From Methanococcoides orientis (GTDB lineage Archaea > Halobacteriota > Methanosarcinia > Methanosarcinales > Methanosarcinaceae): DNA of 64,000 nucleotides. Position 1 is the first letter of the stretch, and every line of letters starts with the position of its first letter. The translations under genes were made by a program, and so were the position numbers. The stretch is taken from NCBI RefSeq assembly GCF_021184045.1, contig NZ_CP073710.1, positions 248,001 through 312,000 on the forward strand, written 5' to 3'. The notes beneath the pieces are model-generated. The model did no database searches, was not told the DNA's origin, and worked only from the letters and a program-made list of their open reading frames with translations. Shown here piece by piece: positions 47,929-63,546 of the stretch.

Positions 47929-49413
47929 ATGCTAAAAGGTCTCAAAGGCAACATGAATGGTAAGTTAAAATTCCTCTCCGATGAGGAATGTGAAGAGATT
48001 CATTACTCTTCTTTGGAAGTGTTGGATGAGACCGGTCTGAAGATCGAATCTAAAAAAGCTTTGGACAAATTAGATGAATTTGGGTGTGATGTAGATAGAA
48101 GAACTTCTATTGTTAAGTTCCCAAGTTATATTGTGGAAGAATGCCTGAAGCTCACCCGTCCTTCTATTAAATTGTATGGTATTGATTCCAAATATAACCT
48201 TAAGATTGAAAAAAGAAGGTCTTATGTATCTTCTTCTTCCGGCTATGGAATAATAGATCGCGAGACACATTTGCCTCGTGATGGAAACTTAAATGATGTT
48301 GCAGAAGGTGCTTTGCTTGCAGAGAATCTTGATAACATCCACTCAGTTGTTCCTTTAATGGCAGGAGTTTCTGATGTTCCGAGTCCTGTGATGACTCCTG
48401 TCATATTAGGGGAAACTTTAAAGAATACTCAAAAATCGATTGAGTTCTACATAACCGGGGGGGTTGATGCAGATACTGATATGGACAACATCATTGAGAT
48501 GTGTAAAATTGTATCTTCGGGTTCGTCTAAGTTAAAAAAGAACCCTTTTTTGATGTTCGTTGTTGATTCATTCTCGCCTTTGACTTACACAGATGATCAA
48601 ATAAAAAGCCTGTTCAGATCAGTCGAAGAGGGTTTGCCTGTGGTACTTATGCCTGGTGTAATCGGTGGTGCAACAGGTCCTCTTACTCTTGCTGGTATGC
48701 TGGTTCAAAGCAATTCTGAATTTTTAGCAGGTGTGGTACTTTCAAATCTGATCAAAAAAGGTGCTCCTCTGATGTATGGTCACTATAACACTATTATGGA
48801 TATGCGTACAGGTATCTATTCTGCAGGTGCGGTCGAGATGGGCATACTTGGTGCATGCATTGCTCAGATGGGTAACTATTATGATATTCCTACAAATGGT
48901 TTTTATCCAATGTCGGATTCACACGTTCCTGATCAACAGGTTGGTTATGAGAAAACAATGCAATGGGTTTTGTCGTCTCTGGGTGGTATGAATTATTTGA
49001 CAGGTGCCGGTGGAGTTGAAAATGGAACTTTGGTCTCACTTGAACAATTAGTTATTGATAATGAGGTTGTTGGGATGGTGGATCGAATGCTGGAAGGTAT
49101 TCAAGTAGACGATGAGCGAATTGGTGTTGATGTTATCAAGAGTGTTGGTCCAGGTGGTAATTATCTCAAGCACAAACATACGAGGGAATGGATGTATCGT
49201 GAATATTACACTCCTAAGATAAGTGAAAAGCATTCATTTGCTGACTGGAGTAAGGATAGTGGGAACGATGTAGTTCAGAGGGCCAAAATTAATCTTGAGA
49301 ACATTCTTCAAAAATCAGATTCTCCTGTACCAAGTGATATTATTAAAGATATTTCGGAATTTCAGGAGCATTTGATAAAAGGATCAATTAAGCAATACTC
49401 AAACTCAAGCTAA
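47929..49413 (+). CDS. MttB-family corrinoid methyltransferase without pyrrolysine (possible glycine betaine methyltransferase)
   Basis: This 494-residue TIM-barrel protein of the trimethylamine methyltransferase superfamily would move a methyl group from a quaternary or tertiary amine to a corrinoid protein. In MttB the pyrrolysine stands just before a D-S-x-[IV]-P-D segment; here YPMSDSHVPDQQVGYEK gives methionine (about residue 328) at that place and there is no in-frame TAG. Such non-Pyl members include glycine betaine (MtgB) and other betaine or carnitine enzymes. GGTGATCG lies before ATG. No corrinoid protein gene is adjacent; the nearest is at 55974-56624. Confidence 0.85.
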   Translation: MLKGLKGNMNGKLKFLSDEECEEIHYSSLEVLDETGLKIESKKALDKLDEFGCDVDRRTSIVKFPSYIVEECLKLTRPSIKLYGIDSKYNLKIEKRRSYVSSSSGYGIIDRETHLPRDGNLNDVAEGALLAENLDNIHSVVPLMAGVSDVPSPVMTPVILGETLKNTQKSIEFYITGGVDADTDMDNIIEMCKIVSSGSSKLKKNPFLMFVVDSFSPLTYTDDQIKSLFRSVEEGLPVVLMPGVIGGATGPLTLAGMLVQSNSEFLAGVVLSNLIKKGAPLMYGHYNTIMDMRTGIYSAGAVEMGILGACIAQMGNYYDIPTNGFYPMSDSHVPDQQVGYEKTMQWVLSSLGGMNYLTGAGGVENGTLVSLEQLVIDNEVVGMVDRMLEGIQVDDERIGVDVIKSVGPGGNYLKHKHTREWMYREYYTPKISEKHSFADWSKDSGNDVVQRAKINLENILQKSDSPVPSDIIKDISEFQEHLIKGSIKQYSNSS

Positions 49414-49557: not shown

Positions 49558-50115
49558 TTAATCTAACAAAAGCAACCCCCACCATTCAATTTTATCGGTA
49601 ACAGGGAATTCGAGTGTTATACCTGCATTCTTCAATGTACCGACTACGTCTATTCCCATGCCTTCCATGGACGGTCTCGCATTAAACGGATGCCTACAAT
49701 CTTCTCCGCTCTTCACACATTTATCACAGTACGTACAGTCTCCGCCTGAAAATCCAGCTGCAAATCTATATCCTCTTTTCAGTGCTTCCCCTTCAAGGAT
49801 CAATAGAATATCAGAAAGTTGTTTGGCCTTCTTGTTCAGTTCATGTTCAACCGAAGCAGAATCCTGAATGGTTTGTGGTTTAGGTGGATTTTTATGCTCG
49901 ACTGCAAGTACCATAGCAACTCTGTATCTGGAAATAATTTTCCGGACTTCATCAATTGGTGGAAGATTGGGAGGACAAACCAGATCACCATAATGGTTAC
50001 ATCTTGGAACCATGCACTTTAGGCGAACACGTTCATCGACAATAATGCCTGTAGCCTGCATAAGCGAAGCTCTTGCAGCTCCATTTTCGAGTGCAAGGGA
50101 TATGATTTCATCCAA
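49558..50115 (-). CDS. DUF2284 metal-binding protein
   Basis: This 185-residue predicted metal-binding protein is Cys-rich: CMVPRCNHYGDLVCPPNLPPID near 34, CTYCDKCVKSGEDCRHPFNARPSMEGMGIDV near 132. The first set resembles a [4Fe-4S] site. DUF2284 is common in anaerobes and methanogens, with no assigned reaction. It begins with TTG after GTGATAAATAG and lies downstream of the NorD-like gene on the same strand, 68 bases after it. Confidence 0.82.
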   Translation of the reverse strand: MDEIISLALENGAARASLMQATGIIVDERVRLKCMVPRCNHYGDLVCPPNLPPIDEVRKIISRYRVAMVLAVEHKNPPKPQTIQDSASVEHELNKKAKQLSDILLILEGEALKRGYRFAAGFSGGDCTYCDKCVKSGEDCRHPFNARPSMEGMGIDVVGTLKNAGITLEFPVTDKIEWWGLLLLD

Positions 50116-50183: not shown

Positions 50184-53165
50184 TTACGTTGTAATGTGAT
50201 TGTACAAAATGGGCAACCTCTCTGGCAAAGTGACTGCATTGTCAAGAATGGTGTACCCTACATCCGAAAATATAGAATCCATGTAGTCACTTGCCTCGGA
50301 ATCAACCGTTATGCAGAAAAAATGCATTCCAAGGGTATTACCTTCCTGAATAGCCATTCTTGTATCCTCGATTGCAGCCTGTCCCTGGTATTTCCCATCA
50401 GCAAATCCTAGATCATAAGGTTCTCCATCGGAAAGCAATATTAGCAGCTTAATCTTGGCATCAACCTTTTTGAGTTTTGTTATGGAATGCCTTATGGCTG
50501 CACCCAATCTTGTGTTATACGCAGGTTCTAGTGCAGCAATTTTGCCTTCGACATCTTCTGAGAATTTTTCCCCGAAATCCTTTATACCATAATATTCCAC
50601 ATCAGTTCTCGTATCTCCGGAAAACGCATAGATAGCATATTTGTCACCTATACTCTCAAGCGCTTCTATCATTATGACCAGAGCCTCTTTTTCAACATCC
50701 AGTATGTTTTTCCCGTTATCCAGCTCTTTATCTGTGGAAGCGCTTATATCCACCAGGAAAAGAGTAGCTACATCCCTTTCGCGTTTATCCCTTCGTATGT
50801 AGAGGTTTTCCGTTGGGTTGATTCCACATCTCCTATCCGTGAACGCTTCTGTAATTGCATCGAAATCAAGTTCATCTCCGTCAGTCTGTCTCCTTAGTTT
50901 CTGGAATGATACGGGTTTCATCATTTTGAAAATGCGGTTTATAAGTGATATTTCATGGTTGTAGTGTTCCACTGTGTCCTGGTAAAAACTACTGGATTTT
51001 CCGGTGGGCAATACATCATATACCATGCACCATTCGGATTTGTAGTCCTTTATCCCGGCATCCCATTCATCGTAGCTATAACTGTCCAGCACATCCCAGT
51101 TTTTAGCAATCGCGCACTTTGGACCGGATTGCAAGTCTTCCTGCATAATCTCATCTTCATCCAGGTCTAGTATGGTCTGGGGGATAAAACGTTCGAGGAT
51201 CTTTTCCGTAAACTCCTTCTCTTCTTCCAGGGTTGATGAGATCCCGATTCCTTGTCCCCGATAATCCAAATTTCGAATAGCATTGTATTCCTTGGTTTTT
51301 AGGGATCCAAACTGTTCCTCAAGCATGCTGTAAATGTCAAATGTCACTTCGAGTGAAGTGAAAGAGGTTGAATTGGGCTGGAATATCTTCTTTTCCAGTA
51401 TACTTCTAACTTTCTCAATTGGCAGCCTGTGGCTGCCGTCAAGGTCAAATCCGGCTTCATGTCCGAGAGAGACTAACAGAAAGGCTTCCATGAACTTTTC
51501 CAGCTGTTCTTCAGGTTGTTCCCTATCTGCCACCATCTGTTCCTTTACCTTTTTGAACTCCCTGCGCAGTCCTCTGTAGAGATTTGTGGTCTGGTACTCA
51601 ATCCGTGCATCCTCAATAATGCCCAATATGTCTGTTGCAATGAATGGGTTTGGGAACAGGGCGATTGGAATTGCAAAATCAATAGTTATTTCATCATCTG
51701 ATGTTCCGTTTGCTTCAGCGATACCCTCTAAAAACGTAGTGTCCAGATCTGCCGCTATTTTTCCGAACAATGGCAAAAGGGCACTAACAGAACAGGTTGA
51801 GGTTCCGAATTTGGCATGTCCAACTTCATGCATAACGCTGAGCTTGTAAATCCTGAAATTATCTTCAAAATCTCCGTGTCCCTTCATTGTTGGTGTCAGG
51901 TAGATTGCCTTTCCTGAAACCACTGGATGTGAGGGATGGGCGTGTTCTTCCGGCAGGAGGTTATGCGACCTTATAACAAAATTAATTCCGGAAATGCCGA
52001 AGGCATAATACTTCAGGACTTTTGATACCCTTTTAAGGGCAACACCGCTCATCAATTGTTCAACAAATTCCTTTGAACTTCTGGATTTTAATGAAAAATA
52101 TAGCCGGGCGTTAGACTCATCATTTTCAAATATCTCAAGGCCGTACATGGCCCATTCTTCAAGTTCTGTTACATCAAGATCTTCCAGCAAAGTAAGGGAG
52201 TTCCTGAAATAACCGATGGCTATTTCCCGGTTTGTTTCAAACAATATGATTCCGGTATTCACCCATTTATCAAGCTCCTTCGGATGAATATTCATCAGGA
52301 TCTGTGGGAGATTCTCAAAATAGATTCCTGCAATTAAACGATCTTTTTTCAGCAACAATTCCGCATTTTTAAATATTAGTTCATAGAATTTTCGATTCAG
52401 TTTTTTCAGGACCTTTAATGAATTATTGTAATAGTCCGAGCCGTAAACTGAAGTTTCCTCTGAGATCTTTTTTCCTATAGTTACCCATTTCCCAAAGTCT
52501 TCTGCTGTGAGTTCTGTCATAACTTCGGGAGCATTTTCAAAATAGCTTTGGATGCATTTCCGGTTGATCGCAGCAAGCTGTGCACCAAGATCGATAAGGT
52601 GGCTTCTTTCTTCCATGGTTGTATTCTTGAAAGAATTTGCCAGTCCACCAAAAGTTCCCTCGAAAAAGGCTTTTGCAATATCCTTATCTTCAGCAATCAG
52701 CTCCTTTCCCTTTTCCACCCATCGCAACAGTTCTTCCATTTCCATATCGCTAAGCAACTTGGGTGTCATATCCAGGAAAATAATTGCAAGCTCTGGCTTT
52801 TCCCTTGTAAGATCCAGTGCGGTCGCTTTCCATTTTTCAAAATCTTTGTCCGTTAGAGTTGCCATCACAAGAGGGGTATTTTCAAAAAAGGTAAGTGCTG
52901 CCTGGCTATCTGATCTGGCAAATTCTTCGGTGAAACTTAGCAGTTTTTGCCGTTGTTGGAGTGGAATGGCCGAAAAAACGGTTTTTGTTTTATTGATTAG
53001 ATCAATTGCATTCTTTGCCTTTTTTGCTGAAATTTGCCTGATTAAAGCTTGCCATGATCGGAGCACTTCCAGATCCATCAGTGGCATTAATTCCGGAAGT
53101 TTATCCTGATATGCCTTAACTATCTTCTTGTCAATAGTTCCCAAATTCTCTTTGTCTTTGGGCAT
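50184..53165 (-). CDS. NorD/CbbO-like VWA protein with zincin-type HEVGH motif
   Basis: This 993-residue partner of a MoxR ATPase has three parts. Residues 1 to about 370 hold repeated helical units of about 35-40 residues (LTAEDFGKWVTIGKKI, HPKELDKWVNTGIILFETNREIAIGYFRNS, and so on). Near 445 there is HEVGH followed by IEDARIEYQTTNLYRGLRREF, like the middle domain of NorD, but with an intact metalloprotease-type motif. The C-terminal part is a VWA domain with MIDAS DISAST (about 805) and SDGEPYD. NorD/CbbO proteins join a NorQ/CbbQ ATPase to remodel or load metal enzymes. It follows the ATPase gene by six bases. The target is unknown. Confidence 0.85.
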   Translation of the reverse strand: MPKDKENLGTIDKKIVKAYQDKLPELMPLMDLEVLRSWQALIRQISAKKAKNAIDLINKTKTVFSAIPLQQRQKLLSFTEEFARSDSQAALTFFENTPLVMATLTDKDFEKWKATALDLTREKPELAIIFLDMTPKLLSDMEMEELLRWVEKGKELIAEDKDIAKAFFEGTFGGLANSFKNTTMEERSHLIDLGAQLAAINRKCIQSYFENAPEVMTELTAEDFGKWVTIGKKISEETSVYGSDYYNNSLKVLKKLNRKFYELIFKNAELLLKKDRLIAGIYFENLPQILMNIHPKELDKWVNTGIILFETNREIAIGYFRNSLTLLEDLDVTELEEWAMYGLEIFENDESNARLYFSLKSRSSKEFVEQLMSGVALKRVSKVLKYYAFGISGINFVIRSHNLLPEEHAHPSHPVVSGKAIYLTPTMKGHGDFEDNFRIYKLSVMHEVGHAKFGTSTCSVSALLPLFGKIAADLDTTFLEGIAEANGTSDDEITIDFAIPIALFPNPFIATDILGIIEDARIEYQTTNLYRGLRREFKKVKEQMVADREQPEEQLEKFMEAFLLVSLGHEAGFDLDGSHRLPIEKVRSILEKKIFQPNSTSFTSLEVTFDIYSMLEEQFGSLKTKEYNAIRNLDYRGQGIGISSTLEEEKEFTEKILERFIPQTILDLDEDEIMQEDLQSGPKCAIAKNWDVLDSYSYDEWDAGIKDYKSEWCMVYDVLPTGKSSSFYQDTVEHYNHEISLINRIFKMMKPVSFQKLRRQTDGDELDFDAITEAFTDRRCGINPTENLYIRRDKRERDVATLFLVDISASTDKELDNGKNILDVEKEALVIMIEALESIGDKYAIYAFSGDTRTDVEYYGIKDFGEKFSEDVEGKIAALEPAYNTRLGAAIRHSITKLKKVDAKIKLLILLSDGEPYDLGFADGKYQGQAAIEDTRMAIQEGNTLGMHFFCITVDSEASDYMDSIFSDVGYTILDNAVTLPERLPILYNHITT

Positions 53166-53171
53166 TGATCT

Positions 53172-53996
53172 TCACTCCACAATGGCGGATACGATCTCGT
53201 CTATGCTTTTCTGAAGATCAAAATCATCTGTAATGGGCTTAACCATTGCTGCCCTGCATGCCTGCTTTGGATCGATGCCGGAATGTATCAGCATACCGGT
53301 GTATATTAAAAGGCGTGTGCTTACCCCTTCCTCAAGTCCATGCTGTTTGAAATTTCGTATCCTCTGGCCAATTTCCACAAGGGTGTGGGCAGTCTCTTCA
53401 TCAATTCCGCTCTCATGTGCCACGATTTTAGTTTCAAGATCAGCAGGTGGGTACTCAAAGTCCATGGCTACAAATCTCTGCCTTGTGCTCTGCTTCAGGT
53501 CTTTTAGAACGCTCTGATATCCAGGGTTATATGATATAGACAGTGTAAATTCCGGGGGAGCATGGAGAATAATTCCCAGCTTGTCAACCGGCATGATGCG
53601 TCTGTCATCCGTAAGCGGGTGAATTACCACCCTTGTGTCCATTCTTGCTTCTACAAATTCATCGAGGTAACAGATGGCACCGGTCCTGACAGCTTTTGTA
53701 AGGGGTCCATCATTCCATTCTGTTGATTCTCCTTTGATCAGGAACCTTCCAATGAGATCGCTGGCTGTCAGGTCCTCATGGCAGGAAATCGTAATCAAGG
53801 GACGCTTTAATTTGTAGGCCATGTACTCCATGAACCGTGTTTTTCCACAACCTGTCGGGCCTTTCAGGTTGATGGGTAGGTTGTTTTCATAGGCAGCCGT
53901 ATAAATTTCCACTTCGTCACCAACAGGCAGGTAGTAAGGCTCTTCTGTGATGATATATTCTTCAACCGGTTGCTCGGAACATATGATGTTTTTCAT
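53172..53996 (-). CDS. MoxR/NorQ/CbbQ-type AAA+ ATPase (copy 1)
   Basis: This 274-residue AAA+ ATPase has the Walker A motif [13 protein letters not shown] (about 45), Walker [28 protein letters not shown], sensor [23 protein letters not shown] and a C-terminal helical lid. MoxR ATPases act with VWA proteins to remodel client enzymes. It has a GGTGAT start site. It is translated with the NorD-like gene that follows. The paralogue at 62722-63546 is nearly the same over most of the sequence. Confidence 0.92.
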
Positions 53997-54064: not shown

Positions 54065-54310
54065 TTAAACTAATTCGTTTTTAATGTGTTCCGACCATTC
54101 GGGAACAAGTTTATACTCAATATCCATAACACTTTCATGTTTTCCTGTGCAGCTGATTATTCCATCTTTTTTAAGTTTGACAATTTGAGGAATAAGCTTT
54201 CTGGCACAGGGACGCTTGGATAGGGAGAGTAGAATTTCTCTCAGGGTCAGTGGTCCATTGGAGGCTACAAGAGCTTTAAGGACGCCACGTTGTAATGATG
54301 TTAAATACAT
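54065..54310 (-). CDS. Small winged-helix protein
   Basis: This 81-residue protein (MYLTSLQRGVLKALVASNGP...) has a helix-turn-helix and wing (LTLREILLSLSKRPCARKLIPQIVKLKKDGIISCTGKHESVMDIEYKL). A very strong AAAGGAGGAAAT before ATG 54310 sets the start; the longer frame to 54562 adds a Pro/Lys-rich, non-conserved tract. It lies between the MtmB-like gene and the MoxR gene on the same strand and may control them. It could also be a non-DNA-binding winged helix. Confidence 0.65.
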   Translation of the reverse strand: MYLTSLQRGVLKALVASNGPLTLREILLSLSKRPCARKLIPQIVKLKKDGIISCTGKHESVMDIEYKLVPEWSEHIKNELV

Positions 54311-54580: not shown

Positions 54581-55960
54581 TCAGAACTCGAATTCCATAC
54601 CGAGGTCTGTCAGTTTAGCCTTGGATTTAGCCCACAGATCCACATATTCCTGGGATGGGGTAACTTTTTCAAGGTCGTAGCATTCATAGAATTTCTTACC
54701 CTTTGGAGCATTTCCAGCGGTTGTCGTAGGTGCATATGTCTTTTCAAGCTCAACACAGAATTCGTTCATGTCAGCCATACTCATCTTTGCAGCTGCAATT
54801 CCGATTTCTGCGGTTATGCGGGAATCCATTCCTGTGTATGCATCGACTTCAGTTCCGCAGGTACCTGCACCACCAAAGAGAATATCGATACCACCAGCAG
54901 TTATTGCACCGGCATATACTGCAATCTCATCGATCATCATTTCAGTGCATGCTCCTGCAGATGGGAATACATAGTTGCTGTACAGTCCCTTGGTGTTTCT
55001 CTTCAATGCAGCTCCTGTATGTGCTGAAACAAATGTTGGTGCTGCACTTGAACCTTCACCTGACATTGGGTTGAATGGTGGGCAAATTGAGTAGCTAGCA
55101 GCCCCAAAGACCATGTATGCCACAATACCCTCAGCAATATTTGCGATGGCAGTTGTTGCAGGTCCGCCAGTGTATCCTCCCATAATTGGACACATGCATC
55201 CATCTACTGTGAGGCTGTTCTGGCTGGTGTTAACTGCTTTCTTAAGACAGTCCCAGTCAATCTTCATATCATTCAGGAGACACAGAAGATGCATATCTTC
55301 AGGTCTCATTGCGCCAGGACCATCACCAAAGATCTGTCCTTCACTGGTAACTGATGACATGATACCGACCATTGGCATTCCAGGTCTTCCTGCCATACGC
55401 ATACCTTCACGGGTCCAGACAGCTTCTGCTCTTGCACCGAGCATCTCTATTGGGGATCTTGCCTTCATCTCCATTCCGTGCAGGGTTGCAACTGATCCAC
55501 AGTGAATTCCGGATGCTAATGGTTCTCTTGCATAAGATTCCATGACCTTTGCATAGTATTGTTCGCTGATTACACCACCATTTGCACCGCCGAATGTTGT
55601 TGGAGCTCTTTTGTCACCGGGCTGCCTTTGCACTACAGTAACTTTCTCGTTTCCAACACCATATGTTTTTTCACCAGGTAGAAGTCTCAACTGTTCTTTT
55701 ATTTCGCTTTCTTCGAGCTTAATTACACTGTTGGTGCTTATGTTGTAGATACCGACATCGACTATGAGTTCCATAGCTGCTTTGAACATGGAATCAACCA
55801 TATCCATATCCTGAGGAACAATTTCATCAGGATTGTATGTAATATCATATTCTTTTGCGAGCTCATTCAGCCTTTTTGGGAGTATTCTGTTGTCAAAGTT
55901 TTTCTCCTCTATCTTATCTGCTTCAACTGATTTCTGGTATAGGTTAATTATATCTAACAT
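54581..55960 (-). CDS. MtmB-family (monomethylamine-type) corrinoid methyltransferase lacking pyrrolysine
   Basis: This methyltransferase of 459 residues matches the size of MtmB. Shared with MtmB: AMAGRPGM-like text (here MRMAGRPGMPMVGIMSS), LNDMKIDWD, CPIMGGYTGG, PSAGACTEMM and ECYDLEKVTPSQEY near the end. In MtmB pyrrolysine 202 follows AGRPGMGV; here the same place is valine (about residue 198, GTC codon), with no in-frame TAG. The true start ATG 55960 has GAGGTGA in front; a nine-codon longer frame overlaps the corrinoid gene. The substrate is unknown. The cognate corrinoid protein is directly upstream. Confidence 0.88.
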   Translation of the reverse strand: MLDIINLYQKSVEADKIEEKNFDNRILPKRLNELAKEYDITYNPDEIVPQDMDMVDSMFKAAMELIVDVGIYNISTNSVIKLEESEIKEQLRLLPGEKTYGVGNEKVTVVQRQPGDKRAPTTFGGANGGVISEQYYAKVMESYAREPLASGIHCGSVATLHGMEMKARSPIEMLGARAEAVWTREGMRMAGRPGMPMVGIMSSVTSEGQIFGDGPGAMRPEDMHLLCLLNDMKIDWDCLKKAVNTSQNSLTVDGCMCPIMGGYTGGPATTAIANIAEGIVAYMVFGAASYSICPPFNPMSGEGSSAAPTFVSAHTGAALKRNTKGLYSNYVFPSAGACTEMMIDEIAVYAGAITAGGIDILFGGAGTCGTEVDAYTGMDSRITAEIGIAAAKMSMADMNEFCVELEKTYAPTTTAGNAPKGKKFYECYDLEKVTPSQEYVDLWAKSKAKLTDLGMEFEF

Positions 55961-55973
55961 TTTAGTCACCTCT

Positions 55974-56624
55974 TTACTTTGAGACAAGTTTCTTTGCAGC
56001 TTCTACTGCCTGGTGTGAATTGAGTGCGTATGCATCTGCTCCAATACTGTCAGCATAATCCTGGCTGACTGGGGCACCACCGACCATCACTTTATGGTTT
56101 TCTCTGATTCCCATACCTTCAAGCAGTTTTACGATGTCTCCAAGATATGGCATTGTTGTGCTCATGAGTGCAGAACCTGCAACTATGTCTGCATTGTTGT
56201 CTTTAGCAGCCTGTACCATTGTTGTAACCGGTACATCTCTGCCCATATCTACAACTTTGAAACCGGAAGCTTGTAGCATACCTGCTACGATGTTTTTACC
56301 TAGGTCGTGGATGTCTCCTTCGATAGTTCCAATAACTACAGTTCCTTTTGTAGCAGATGTTTCGCCGGATGCAGCCATTTTTTCAGACAATGCATTGCTT
56401 GAACTGTTCATTATCTCAGCAGCGATCATGACCTGTGGAAGATAATATTCCATGGTCTCGAATCTGACACCAACTTCGGTCATAGCTTCTGCCAATTTAT
56501 TCAGGAGTGTAACTGGGTCTAAATCTGCACTGATCCATTCAGCTACCGCCTCTGCTGTTCCGTCTTCATCAATTGCTACGAGGGTATCGTAAGCTTTTTG
56601 CAAAATCTCATTTTCGGATGACAT
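55974..56624 (-). CDS. Methylamine-type corrinoid protein (MtmC/MtbC/MttC-like)
   Basis: This 216-residue corrinoid carrier has an N-terminal helical methyl-cap domain (1-90) and a B12-binding Rossmann domain with base-off motif GDIHDLGKNIVAGMLQASGF (DxHxxG near 104). GSALMSTTMPY and GGAPVSQDYADSIGADAY follow. It accepts a methyl group from the methyltransferase encoded next (13 bases on) and passes it to a coenzyme M methyltransferase. AGGTGA serves as ribosome binding site. Its substrate class is set by the unusual MtmB-like partner. Confidence 0.92.
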   Translation of the reverse strand: MSSENEILQKAYDTLVAIDEDGTAEAVAEWISADLDPVTLLNKLAEAMTEVGVRFETMEYYLPQVMIAAEIMNSSSNALSEKMAASGETSATKGTVVIGTIEGDIHDLGKNIVAGMLQASGFKVVDMGRDVPVTTMVQAAKDNNADIVAGSALMSTTMPYLGDIVKLLEGMGIRENHKVMVGGAPVSQDYADSIGADAYALNSHQAVEAAKKLVSK

Positions 56625-57041
56625 TTTTGTTCACCTGTTTCCCATTTTCATTTGAGCACACTTTATCTCCTGATTATTTCCTTCTGTTTTTCTGTGCTCA
56701 TATTAATCAAACATTACATCATATTTAAAGCTATTTACAAAAGACTTATATATTACATTTTAACAACAAAACATTTATATATTATAATAAGAACCTGTTA
56801 GTGGGGCTGTGGAATCCATCTTCAACTCGACACCTGACTTCTCCTCGGTGCCTTCCACGGTCCTTCTCTTTTTTGTAGGAATTTCTTTTGTATATTATAT
56901 ATAAAAACATCGATTAATAATTATTATATATAAACATTTTTACCATAAACTTATATATAACATCATCTCCTTTTTATATTACCACTTAATTTGATGGTAA
57001 TGGACTTGTAAAGTGTGACTAGACTTGTAGGAGGTCTATAC
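56625..57041. promoter_or_regulatory. Divergent control region with repeated TATA-like boxes
   Basis: This 417-base region lies between the corrinoid gene (minus) and the permease (plus). It carries five similar A/T motifs of the form TTATATATTA or TTATATATAAACAT near 56747, 56773, 56891, 56924 and 56951. It also holds a G/C-richer island at 56800-56875 (see ncRNA). Such repeats may be alternative promoters or binding sites for a regulator such as the methanogen Msr/HTH types. Confidence 0.55.
56800..56875 (+). ncRNA. Candidate small RNA in the divergent methyltransferase/permease spacer
   Basis: A TATA box (TTTATATATTATAAT, 56773-56787) stands about 27 bases upstream of a G/C-rich stretch. 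That stretch can fold: GTGGAA (56809-56814) pairs with TTCCAC (56853-56858), and CACC (56831-56834) with GGTG (56847-56850). It ends with CTTCTCTTTTTT (56863-56874), as archaeal T-tract terminators do. No ORF lies in it. A free sRNA is one reading; an attenuated leader of the permease operon is another. Confidence 0.45.
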
Positions 57042-58088
57042 ATGGATATACGAGAATTAAAAAGGTTAGAAAATAAAAGAAAAATGAATAAAGGATATAT
57101 GTGGGCCCTTTTCTGTGCAGTATTATGGGCTCTCTGGTACATCCCGGGAACGATAATCTGGGCAATACCTCCATTTGATACAATGTGGGTAGCCATCGAC
57201 GCAACACATGGTGCTTCAATGGCAACAATTATAGTTGCTGTGCTAATAACGGCATTCAATGCACTGACTGTTATTATTGCACTTTTAGTGTGGAATGGTG
57301 TTCTTGGAAAATTTGGGGAGATGAAAAGAACTCTGACGGAACTCCATCCTTGTAGTAAATGGTTCTTCCTTGCATCTATCTTCGGTGGTCCGATCGCAAT
57401 TCTTGGTTCATTTATTGCTATAGGTTTTATTGGTGCATCATTTGCAGCAGTAGCTGCATTATTATACCCTATTGTAGGTTCTGTCCTTGCATGGAAATGG
57501 TATGGTGAACAGATCTCCAGGCGTGCAGCATTTGGTATTGTTGTTATTATGATCGGTGGTATCACCATATTCGTAGGTGGTGCCATTGCAGATATTGCTG
57601 CAGGTGGCGTTAGCTGGATAGGTTATCTTGGTGGTTTGATGTGTGCTTGTGGTTGGGGTATTGAAGGTGCTATTGCAGGCAAGGGTCTCGATATTGCAGA
57701 GCCTGATGTGGGTATTACAATTCGTTTCATCGGCGAGAATGTCATCTGGTGGATCATTATCATACCTATTGTAGCACTAGCTGGCTTCCCAGTGGTCGAA
57801 TATGCATTTGCAGCACTGAATCCTCTGTCGATCCTCGTACTGGGATTTGCAGGTATCACTTTTGGTTACTGCTATGTTTCCTGGTACAAGTCCTTCCCTC
57901 TCATTGGTGTAGGTCGCGGACAGGGTATTGCAAACCTGTATGGTCTTTGTGCAGTGATCTTCCTTTATCTGTTCTTTGCGCAGGTTCCGCCATGGACTGT
58001 TCTTCTCGGTGGCGCACTTTGTGTCCTCGGTAGCTTTGTAATGATCTCTGAAGAAACGGGTGATGTGGAATCAATAAGGGGTGATTAA
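57042..58088 (+). CDS. DMT/EamA-like permease, possible methylated-amine transporter (MttP-like)
   Basis: This protein of about 348 residues has ten hydrophobic helices in the drug/metabolite transporter pattern (MNKGYMWALFCAVLWALWYIPGTIIWAIPP near the start; AAVAALLYPIVGSVLAWKWYGE near 150). GTAGGAGGTC lies before ATG 57042. In Methanosarcina, permease genes (mttP, mtbP, mtmP) lie beside methylamine methyltransferase genes, and this one is divergent from an MtmB-like/corrinoid pair. A methylated-amine or related substrate is therefore inferred. Two tiny genes follow in the same transcript. Confidence 0.75.
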   Translation: MDIRELKRLENKRKMNKGYMWALFCAVLWALWYIPGTIIWAIPPFDTMWVAIDATHGASMATIIVAVLITAFNALTVIIALLVWNGVLGKFGEMKRTLTELHPCSKWFFLASIFGGPIAILGSFIAIGFIGASFAAVAALLYPIVGSVLAWKWYGEQISRRAAFGIVVIMIGGITIFVGGAIADIAAGGVSWIGYLGGLMCACGWGIEGAIAGKGLDIAEPDVGITIRFIGENVIWWIIIIPIVALAGFPVVEYAFAALNPLSILVLGFAGITFGYCYVSWYKSFPLIGVGRGQGIANLYGLCAVIFLYLFFAQVPPWTVLLGGALCVLGSFVMISEETGDVESIRGD

Positions 58089-62721: not shown

Positions 62722-63546
62722 ATGACCGATATTATCTGTTCCCAGCAGCGTGCTGAAGAATGCGTCATTAAAGAAGAACCATACTACGTTCCTGTCGGAA
62801 ATGAGGTCGAGATCTTCAGGGCTGCTTATGAAAATAAACTGCCTGTCAGTCTCAAAGGACCAACCGGGTGCGGGAAAACACGTTTTATCGAATATATGGC
62901 CTACGATCTGGGGCGTCCTCTTATTACGATCTCCTGTCATGAGGACCTGACAGCTAACGATCTTATCGGCAGGTTCCTGATAAAAGGAGAAGGAACCGAA
63001 TGGAACGATGGACCCTTAACAGCTGCTTTGAAAAGCGGTGCTATCTGTTACCTTGATGAGTTCGTGGAAGCAAGGATGGATACAAGAGTAGTAATTCATC
63101 CGCTTACGGATGACCGGCGTATCATGCCCATCGAGAAAATGGGTATTGTACTTCAGGCACCACCTGAGTTCATGCTGACCATCTCCTACAATCCGGGATA
63201 CCAGAGCGTGCTGAAGGACTTGAAGCAGAGCACAAGACAGAGATTTGTTTCTATTGATTTTGACTACCCGCCTGCTGAACTGGAAACCGACATAGTTGCT
63301 CATGAAAGTGGCGTGGATGAGGAAACTGCTCGCACTCTTGTGGATATTGGTCATCGCATACGTAATTTTAAGCAGCATGGCCTTGAGGAAGGAGTAAGCA
63401 CCCGTCTTCTCATATATGCAGGTATGCTTATCAGGTCCGGGATAGAACCAAGGGAAGCATGCAAGGTCGCCATGGTCAAGCCGATCACAGATGATGCTGA
63501 CCTCCAGAAAAGCATAGATGAGATCATATCAGCTATTATGGAGTGA
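62722..63546 (+). CDS. MoxR/NorQ/CbbQ-type AAA+ ATPase (copy 2)
   Basis: This ATPase of about 274 residues is nearly the same as the one at 53172-53996: [55 protein letters not shown] is shared except for a few residues. Walker B reads [26 protein letters not shown] precedes ATG 62722. A VWA-protein gene begins seven bases after its stop, repeating the gene order of copy 1. Confidence 0.92.

Follow-up and report, generated by a model that had tools for sequence, protein, structure and literature searches.

The window analyzed (64,000 nucleotides of the Methanococcoides orientis genome) contained a gene for an MtmB-family methyltransferase without pyrrolysine (Pyl) and, directly upstream on the same strand, a gene for a corrinoid protein, referred to as mtqB-type and mtqC-type, respectively, after the published pair described below. 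A divergent permease gene with a small companion lay on one side of this pair, and a small conserved gene, two genes of the CbbQ/VWA type, and an MttB-family methyltransferase gene lay on the other (Table 1). The pair was separated by only 13 bp, and each gene was preceded by a ribosome-binding site (AGGTGA for the corrinoid protein and GAGGTGA for the methyltransferase), and they thus form an operon.

Table 1. Features of the locus; positions refer to the window unless a genome position is given.
Feature	Position	Strand	Basis
mtqB-type gene, non-pyrrolysine MtmB-family substrate:corrinoid methyltransferase, 459 aa	54581..55960	-	Pfam, PDB, AlphaFold, clade
Codon 198, GTC (Val), equivalent to Pyl202 of MtmB	55367..55369	-	Pairwise alignment to 1l2q and 76-homologue alignment
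mtqC-type gene, cognate corrinoid protein, 216 aa, first in operon	55974..56624	-	B12-binding domains, DxHxxG, tree
Divergent intergenic promoter region	56625..57014	.	A+T-rich tandem TATA-like element at 56741-56787
MttP-type methylamine permease paralogue, EamA family	57015..58088	+	EamA match, identity to trimethylamine-cluster copy
Small protein accompanying the permease, 101 aa	58081..58386	+	94% identical to same-place gene of trimethylamine cluster
Small conserved gene directly downstream of mtqB, 81 aa from inner Met	54065..54310	-	Conserved position
CbbQ-type AAA ATPase	53172..53996	-	Domain match; also beside clade members in G004, G011
VWA-domain partner of CbbQ ATPase	50184..53165	-	Domain match
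Non-pyrrolysine MttB-family methyltransferase, 494 aa	47929..49413	+	PF06253 308 bits, no TAG
Class 2 non-pyrrolysine MtmB, outside the window	G000:C1:212368-213717 (L003, L064:9354-10784)		Met at Pyl position

The methyltransferase (length counted from ATG) matched the MtmB family of Pfam (PF05369) with 363.8 bits (cut-off, 25) over profile positions 1-450 of 450, and 455 residues were aligned with MtmB from M. barkeri in the PDB (1l2q; E 4e-71). An AlphaFold model, for which 37 relatives were used as input, had a mean pLDDT of 94 and was superposed on MtmB (1l2q/1nth) with a TM of 0.96, a Z of 60.9, and an rmsd of 1.4 Å (32% identity to 1l2q), indicating that the TIM-barrel fold of MtmB is present and that the barrel is intact. 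These results confirmed the assignment to the MtmB family along the whole length that had been made in the first-pass annotation. In a comparison with the closest relative, dN (0.15) was much lower than dS (1.2), giving a dN/dS of ~0.12 and thus pointing to purifying selection; by all sequence signs, the gene is functional.

Both B12-binding domains were found by Pfam in the corrinoid protein, together with the motifs DxHxxG (residue 104), SxL, and GG. The best NCBIfam match was MtbC, below the cut-off of that model, and in a phylogenetic tree the protein grouped with those adjoining other mtqB-type genes (support of 100), apart from MttC, MtbC, and MtmC. The proposal that the methyltransferase is paired with a corrinoid protein of its own was therefore correct, and a working substrate system, as also proposed, is likely by analogy with non-pyrrolysine MttBs.

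At the place of the catalytic pyrrolysine, Val198 was found opposite Pyl202 in the alignment with the PDB MtmB. Furthermore, when 76 homologues from related genomes, including 50 TAG-bearing MtmBs, were aligned, all of the 50 TAG codons fell in a single column, in which the residue of the window protein was also V198. No in-frame TAG was found along the whole ORF, and pyrrolysine at another place in the frame was ruled out. The two alignments thus agreed with the valine (GTC) that had been claimed for this position, and the Pyl position did not fall elsewhere on a TAG codon.

The replacement of pyrrolysine, which had been recognized in the first-pass annotation, was accompanied by a coordinated change of several other pocket positions, which had been overlooked. 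Six positions that were invariant in 50/50 TAG MtmBs were all changed in the window protein: E205M, E259C, Q260M, M261C, Q333Y, and Y335F (M201, C255, M256, C257, Y330, and F332, respectively, in its own numbering). E205, E259, Q333, and Y335, which reportedly surround the Pyl ring in the MtmB structures of Hao et al., make up the pocket of the Pyl adduct, and none of them was present in the window protein (M201, C255, Y330, and F332 there). Among the columns conserved in pyrrolysine MtmBs, 108 of 242 were retained. As judged from the primary structure, the pocket appears to have lost acidic residues and to have gained thioether, thiol, and aromatic groups, and may be suited to a quaternary ammonium cation.

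In a maximum-likelihood tree of 52 proteins, three groups were obtained, each with a support of 100/100: pyrrolysine MtmBs (23 proteins), the clade of the window protein (7), and a second class of non-pyrrolysine MtmBs (22; referred to as class 2). The same groups were recovered from a wider MtmB sample. A tree with Pyl and non-Pyl homologues marked, as suggested in the first-pass annotation, hence placed the window protein inside a fully supported non-pyrrolysine clade, away from the pyrrolysine enzymes. The other clade members were from two genomes of the genus (G004, 77% identity; G007, 54%), Methanosarcina sp. KYL-1 (45%), and a Methanosarcinaceae MAG with three copies (40-42%). The clade was present in 3 of 11 genus genomes; among the genomes of named relatives, with near records excluded, only Methanosarcina sp. 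KYL-1 and the Methanosarcinaceae MAG yielded members. No further close member was found in a phylum sample of 393 genomes, and a search of plasmids gave zero matches. Bacterial members of the MtqB kind have been reported (PMC13044021). A third, more divergent group of non-pyrrolysine MtmBs was also observed in Methanosarcina sp. KYL-1 and G007 (L067:10853-12208, L091, L090).

Within the window clade, M201, C255, and M256 were invariant (7/7), and Y330 was kept in 6/7; F332 was found in the Methanococcoides members and lost in the more distant ones. All six pocket residues were identical across the three Methanococcoides members. The pattern is consistent with the Met and Cys residues and the aromatic groups close to the ligand that are expected in the pocket of MtqB. 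On the other hand, the residue at the old Pyl position varied: V in the window, Q in G004, and I in G007, with T and L also found in the clade as a whole.

MtmB homologues of the source genome numbered four: the window copy, two TAG-bearing proteins, and a class 2 protein. The last of these, also a non-Pyl MtmB homologue, differed from the window protein in its separate clade (100/100), the Met at the Pyl position, a G/G/Q/C/Y/W pocket, and the lack of an adjacent corrinoid gene in the genus. The first-pass annotation was correct on the non-Pyl MtmB of the window and missed this second one from another clade. Class 2 was found in most Methanococcoides and many other Methanosarcinaceae, adjoining a cdc6/orc1-type gene and a hydantoinase-like gene. 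An orphan corrinoid protein of the same genome (G000:C1:1084234-1084815; L113) was sister to the corrinoid protein beside the class 2 MtmB in another genome (G104; L077:6197-6844), and is probably the unlinked partner of the class 2 enzyme.

The permease, which the first-pass annotation had described as divergent from the pair, was confirmed as an EamA-type transporter. It shared 82.8% identity with the EamA gene located after mttB(TAG)-mttC in the trimethylamine cluster of the same genome and 73% identity with its counterpart in the mtqB region of G004. Since the permease and its small companion were 83% and 94% identical, respectively, to the pair in the trimethylamine cluster, the permease was regarded as an MttP-type copy. 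MttP homologues have been proposed as quaternary amine importers (cited in a review). In G004, the same permease followed an extra whole mttB(TAG)-mttC set adjoining the mtqBC operon, an arrangement that makes sense because tetramethylammonium yields trimethylamine. The TATA-like element in the divergent promoter region was conserved ahead of the corrinoid gene of G007 (85% over 47 bp). A+T-rich tandem elements of this type (56741-56787 and 56926-56960) were common to the upstream regions of the G007 corrinoid gene and of mtaA in the source genome (L123:18904-18941); common regulation is possible, the sequence being of low complexity.

The small gene downstream of mtqB occupied the same place in all three Methanococcoides genomes that carry the clade (65% and 47% identity); a profile search for a family match gave none, and by eye the product is probably a DNA-binding regulator. 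The CbbQ and VWA genes (50184-53996) directly followed the operon both in the window and in G004, and in the MAG G011 they were found close to clade members; they could encode an activase for the system or be mere neighbors. A second CbbQ copy was found at 62722-63543, and a protein similar to DUF2284 metal-binding domains was encoded between the MttB and VWA genes (49558-50115). In G004 and G007, an MttB gene is divergent from mtqC, and the MttB-family protein of the window shared 61% identity with its product. Because homologues also occurred in G002, G003, and G005, which are genus members lacking mtqB, the MttB-family gene is not strictly linked to mtqB; its product is possibly an enzyme for a later step or for another quaternary or tertiary amine. 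In G003, the non-Pyl MttB and permease genes were close together with no mtqBC, CbbQ, or VWA between them, so that the mtqBC/CbbQ/VWA block of the window looks like an insertion. When RNA elements were searched, the sole match was to PYLIS_3 of Rfam inside the MttB gene (48910-49009), with 32.9 bits (below the cut-off of 38); this gene has no TAG, and the match most likely reflects coding similarity to mttB.

The first-pass annotation regarded the non-Pyl branch of MtmB as uncharacterized, a statement that is now out of date. MtqB from Methanococcoides methylutens Q3c (ACT9XH_RS04775), a non-Pyl MtmB homologue with an adjacent corrinoid protein (MtqC; RS04770), was shown to demethylate tetramethylammonium and choline (Kashyap et al., Front Microbiol, 19 March 2026; PMC13044021). 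In cob(I)alamin methylation by the partially purified enzyme, activities with tetramethylammonium and choline were 37 and 42 nmol per min per mg, respectively; monomethylamine was a weak substrate (11 nmol per min per mg), and no methylation was observed with TMA or glycine betaine (PMC13044021). The gene is described as lying directly after an MtbC-like corrinoid gene (order C then B), near the Pyl operon, and MtqC as being apart from MttC, MtbC, and MtmC (PMC13044021). Q3c MtqB is 78% identical to its homologue in AM1 (PMC13044021), a choline-using strain (PMC6498239), and G004 is probably the genome of AM1.

The window pair shares with MtqBC of Q3c the genus, a non-Pyl MtmB homologue, and an MtbC-like corrinoid gene directly upstream. 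Since the genus, the order of the genes, the type of corrinoid protein, and the level of identity (77% between the window protein and the G004 copy, vs the published 78% between Q3c and AM1) all agree, the pair is very probably the MtqBC orthologue with a shared function, the comparison with Q3c being made by genus, position, partner, and identity levels. The separate grouping of the corrinoid proteins adjoining window-clade enzymes, away from MttC, MtbC, and MtmC, also agrees with the published placement of MtqC. That MtqB might instead be the class 2 enzyme is unlikely: identities within class 2 were 82-98% for the pairs compared from the genus, too high for a value of 78%, and in this genus the class 2 gene has no corrinoid gene as its neighbor. 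As a point to the contrary, the probable unlinked corrinoid partner of class 2 was located in the mtqC-type clade of the corrinoid tree.

Compared with MtmB from M. barkeri (1l2q), the window protein has the same fold and length and likewise a corrinoid partner, but differs in Val for Pyl202 and the six pocket replacements. Pyrrolysine-free demethylation of quaternary amines onto a cognate corrinoid protein would be a feature in common with MtgB and other non-Pyl MttBs (COG5598); however, these belong to another family, the fold of which is only distantly similar (Z of ~25 and 12-14% identity to the window model).

The substrate range may vary within the clade, because the old Pyl residue differs (V, Q, and I), the identity to the G007 copy is only 54%, and the distant members are without F332. 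The clade may be a small radiation of pyrrolysine-free MtmBs, with the window enzyme preferring some quaternary or tertiary amine that is neither tetramethylammonium nor choline and possibly acting in series with the neighboring non-Pyl MttB (choline to dimethylethanolamine and onward); we consider this doubtful. A related explanation, that the window protein is sister to MtqB, follows the same corrinoid route, and acts mainly on another compound (a further quaternary amine, a betaine-like compound, or dimethylethanolamine), appears improbable. The variation at position 198, the identity of only 40-45% to the Methanosarcina and MAG members lacking the aromatic residue of F332, and the nearby non-Pyl MttB are in its favor, whereas the three genus members have the same core pocket (M201, C255, M256, C257, Y330, and F332), and the identity to the G004 copy, probably that of AM1, is at the published level.

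It is highly improbable that the protein is a pyrrolysine-independent methyltransferase with monomethylamine still the main substrate: in spite of the weak activity of Q3c MtqB toward this compound (11 vs 37-42 nmol per min per mg; PMC13044021), none of the residues considered to hold the Pyl adduct is retained, and two TAG MtmBs, with corrinoid genes of their own, are also encoded by the genome. A decayed or non-functional mtmB duplicate, for which the loss of the catalytic residue might speak, was rejected as scarcely credible, being contradicted by purifying selection (dN/dS of ~0.12) on an intact reading frame, coherent pocket changes across the seven proteins of a separate clade, and an operon that retains the corrinoid partner.

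As the orthologue of MtqB, the window enzyme would bind tetramethylammonium or choline, each a quaternary ammonium cation, in the pocket of the TIM barrel, with M201, C255, M256, C257, Y330, and F332 presumably lining this pocket in place of pyrrolysine and its acidic partners. A pyrrolysine adduct would not be needed, because the nitrogen is already positive and a good leaving group. The methyl group may be taken by Co(I) of the corrinoid on MtqC in an SN2 reaction and transferred to coenzyme M by MtbA, with RamA re-reducing Co(II); the substrate probably enters the cell through the adjacent MttP-type permease. The source genome contained two RamA activators above the curated cut-off and an MtbA candidate (591 bits vs a cut-off of 600; the frame was slightly trimmed), as well as ten strongly scoring corrinoid proteins, including that of the window. 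The trimethylamine left from tetramethylammonium would be processed by the ordinary pyrrolysine enzymes that this genome also encodes, the TAG-bearing ones being two MtmBs and one MttB; tRNA-Pyl was not found in the four stretches of the genome that were scanned.

The difference between pyrrolysine-dependent and pyrrolysine-free catalysis in the MtmB family accompanies a complete and coherent change of the pocket, and M201, C255, and M256 provide residue markers that separate the window clade from both pyrrolysine MtmBs and class 2. With the window pair as the very probable orthologue, methanogenesis from choline and tetramethylammonium by the newly described MtqBC route would be extended to another Methanococcoides genome.
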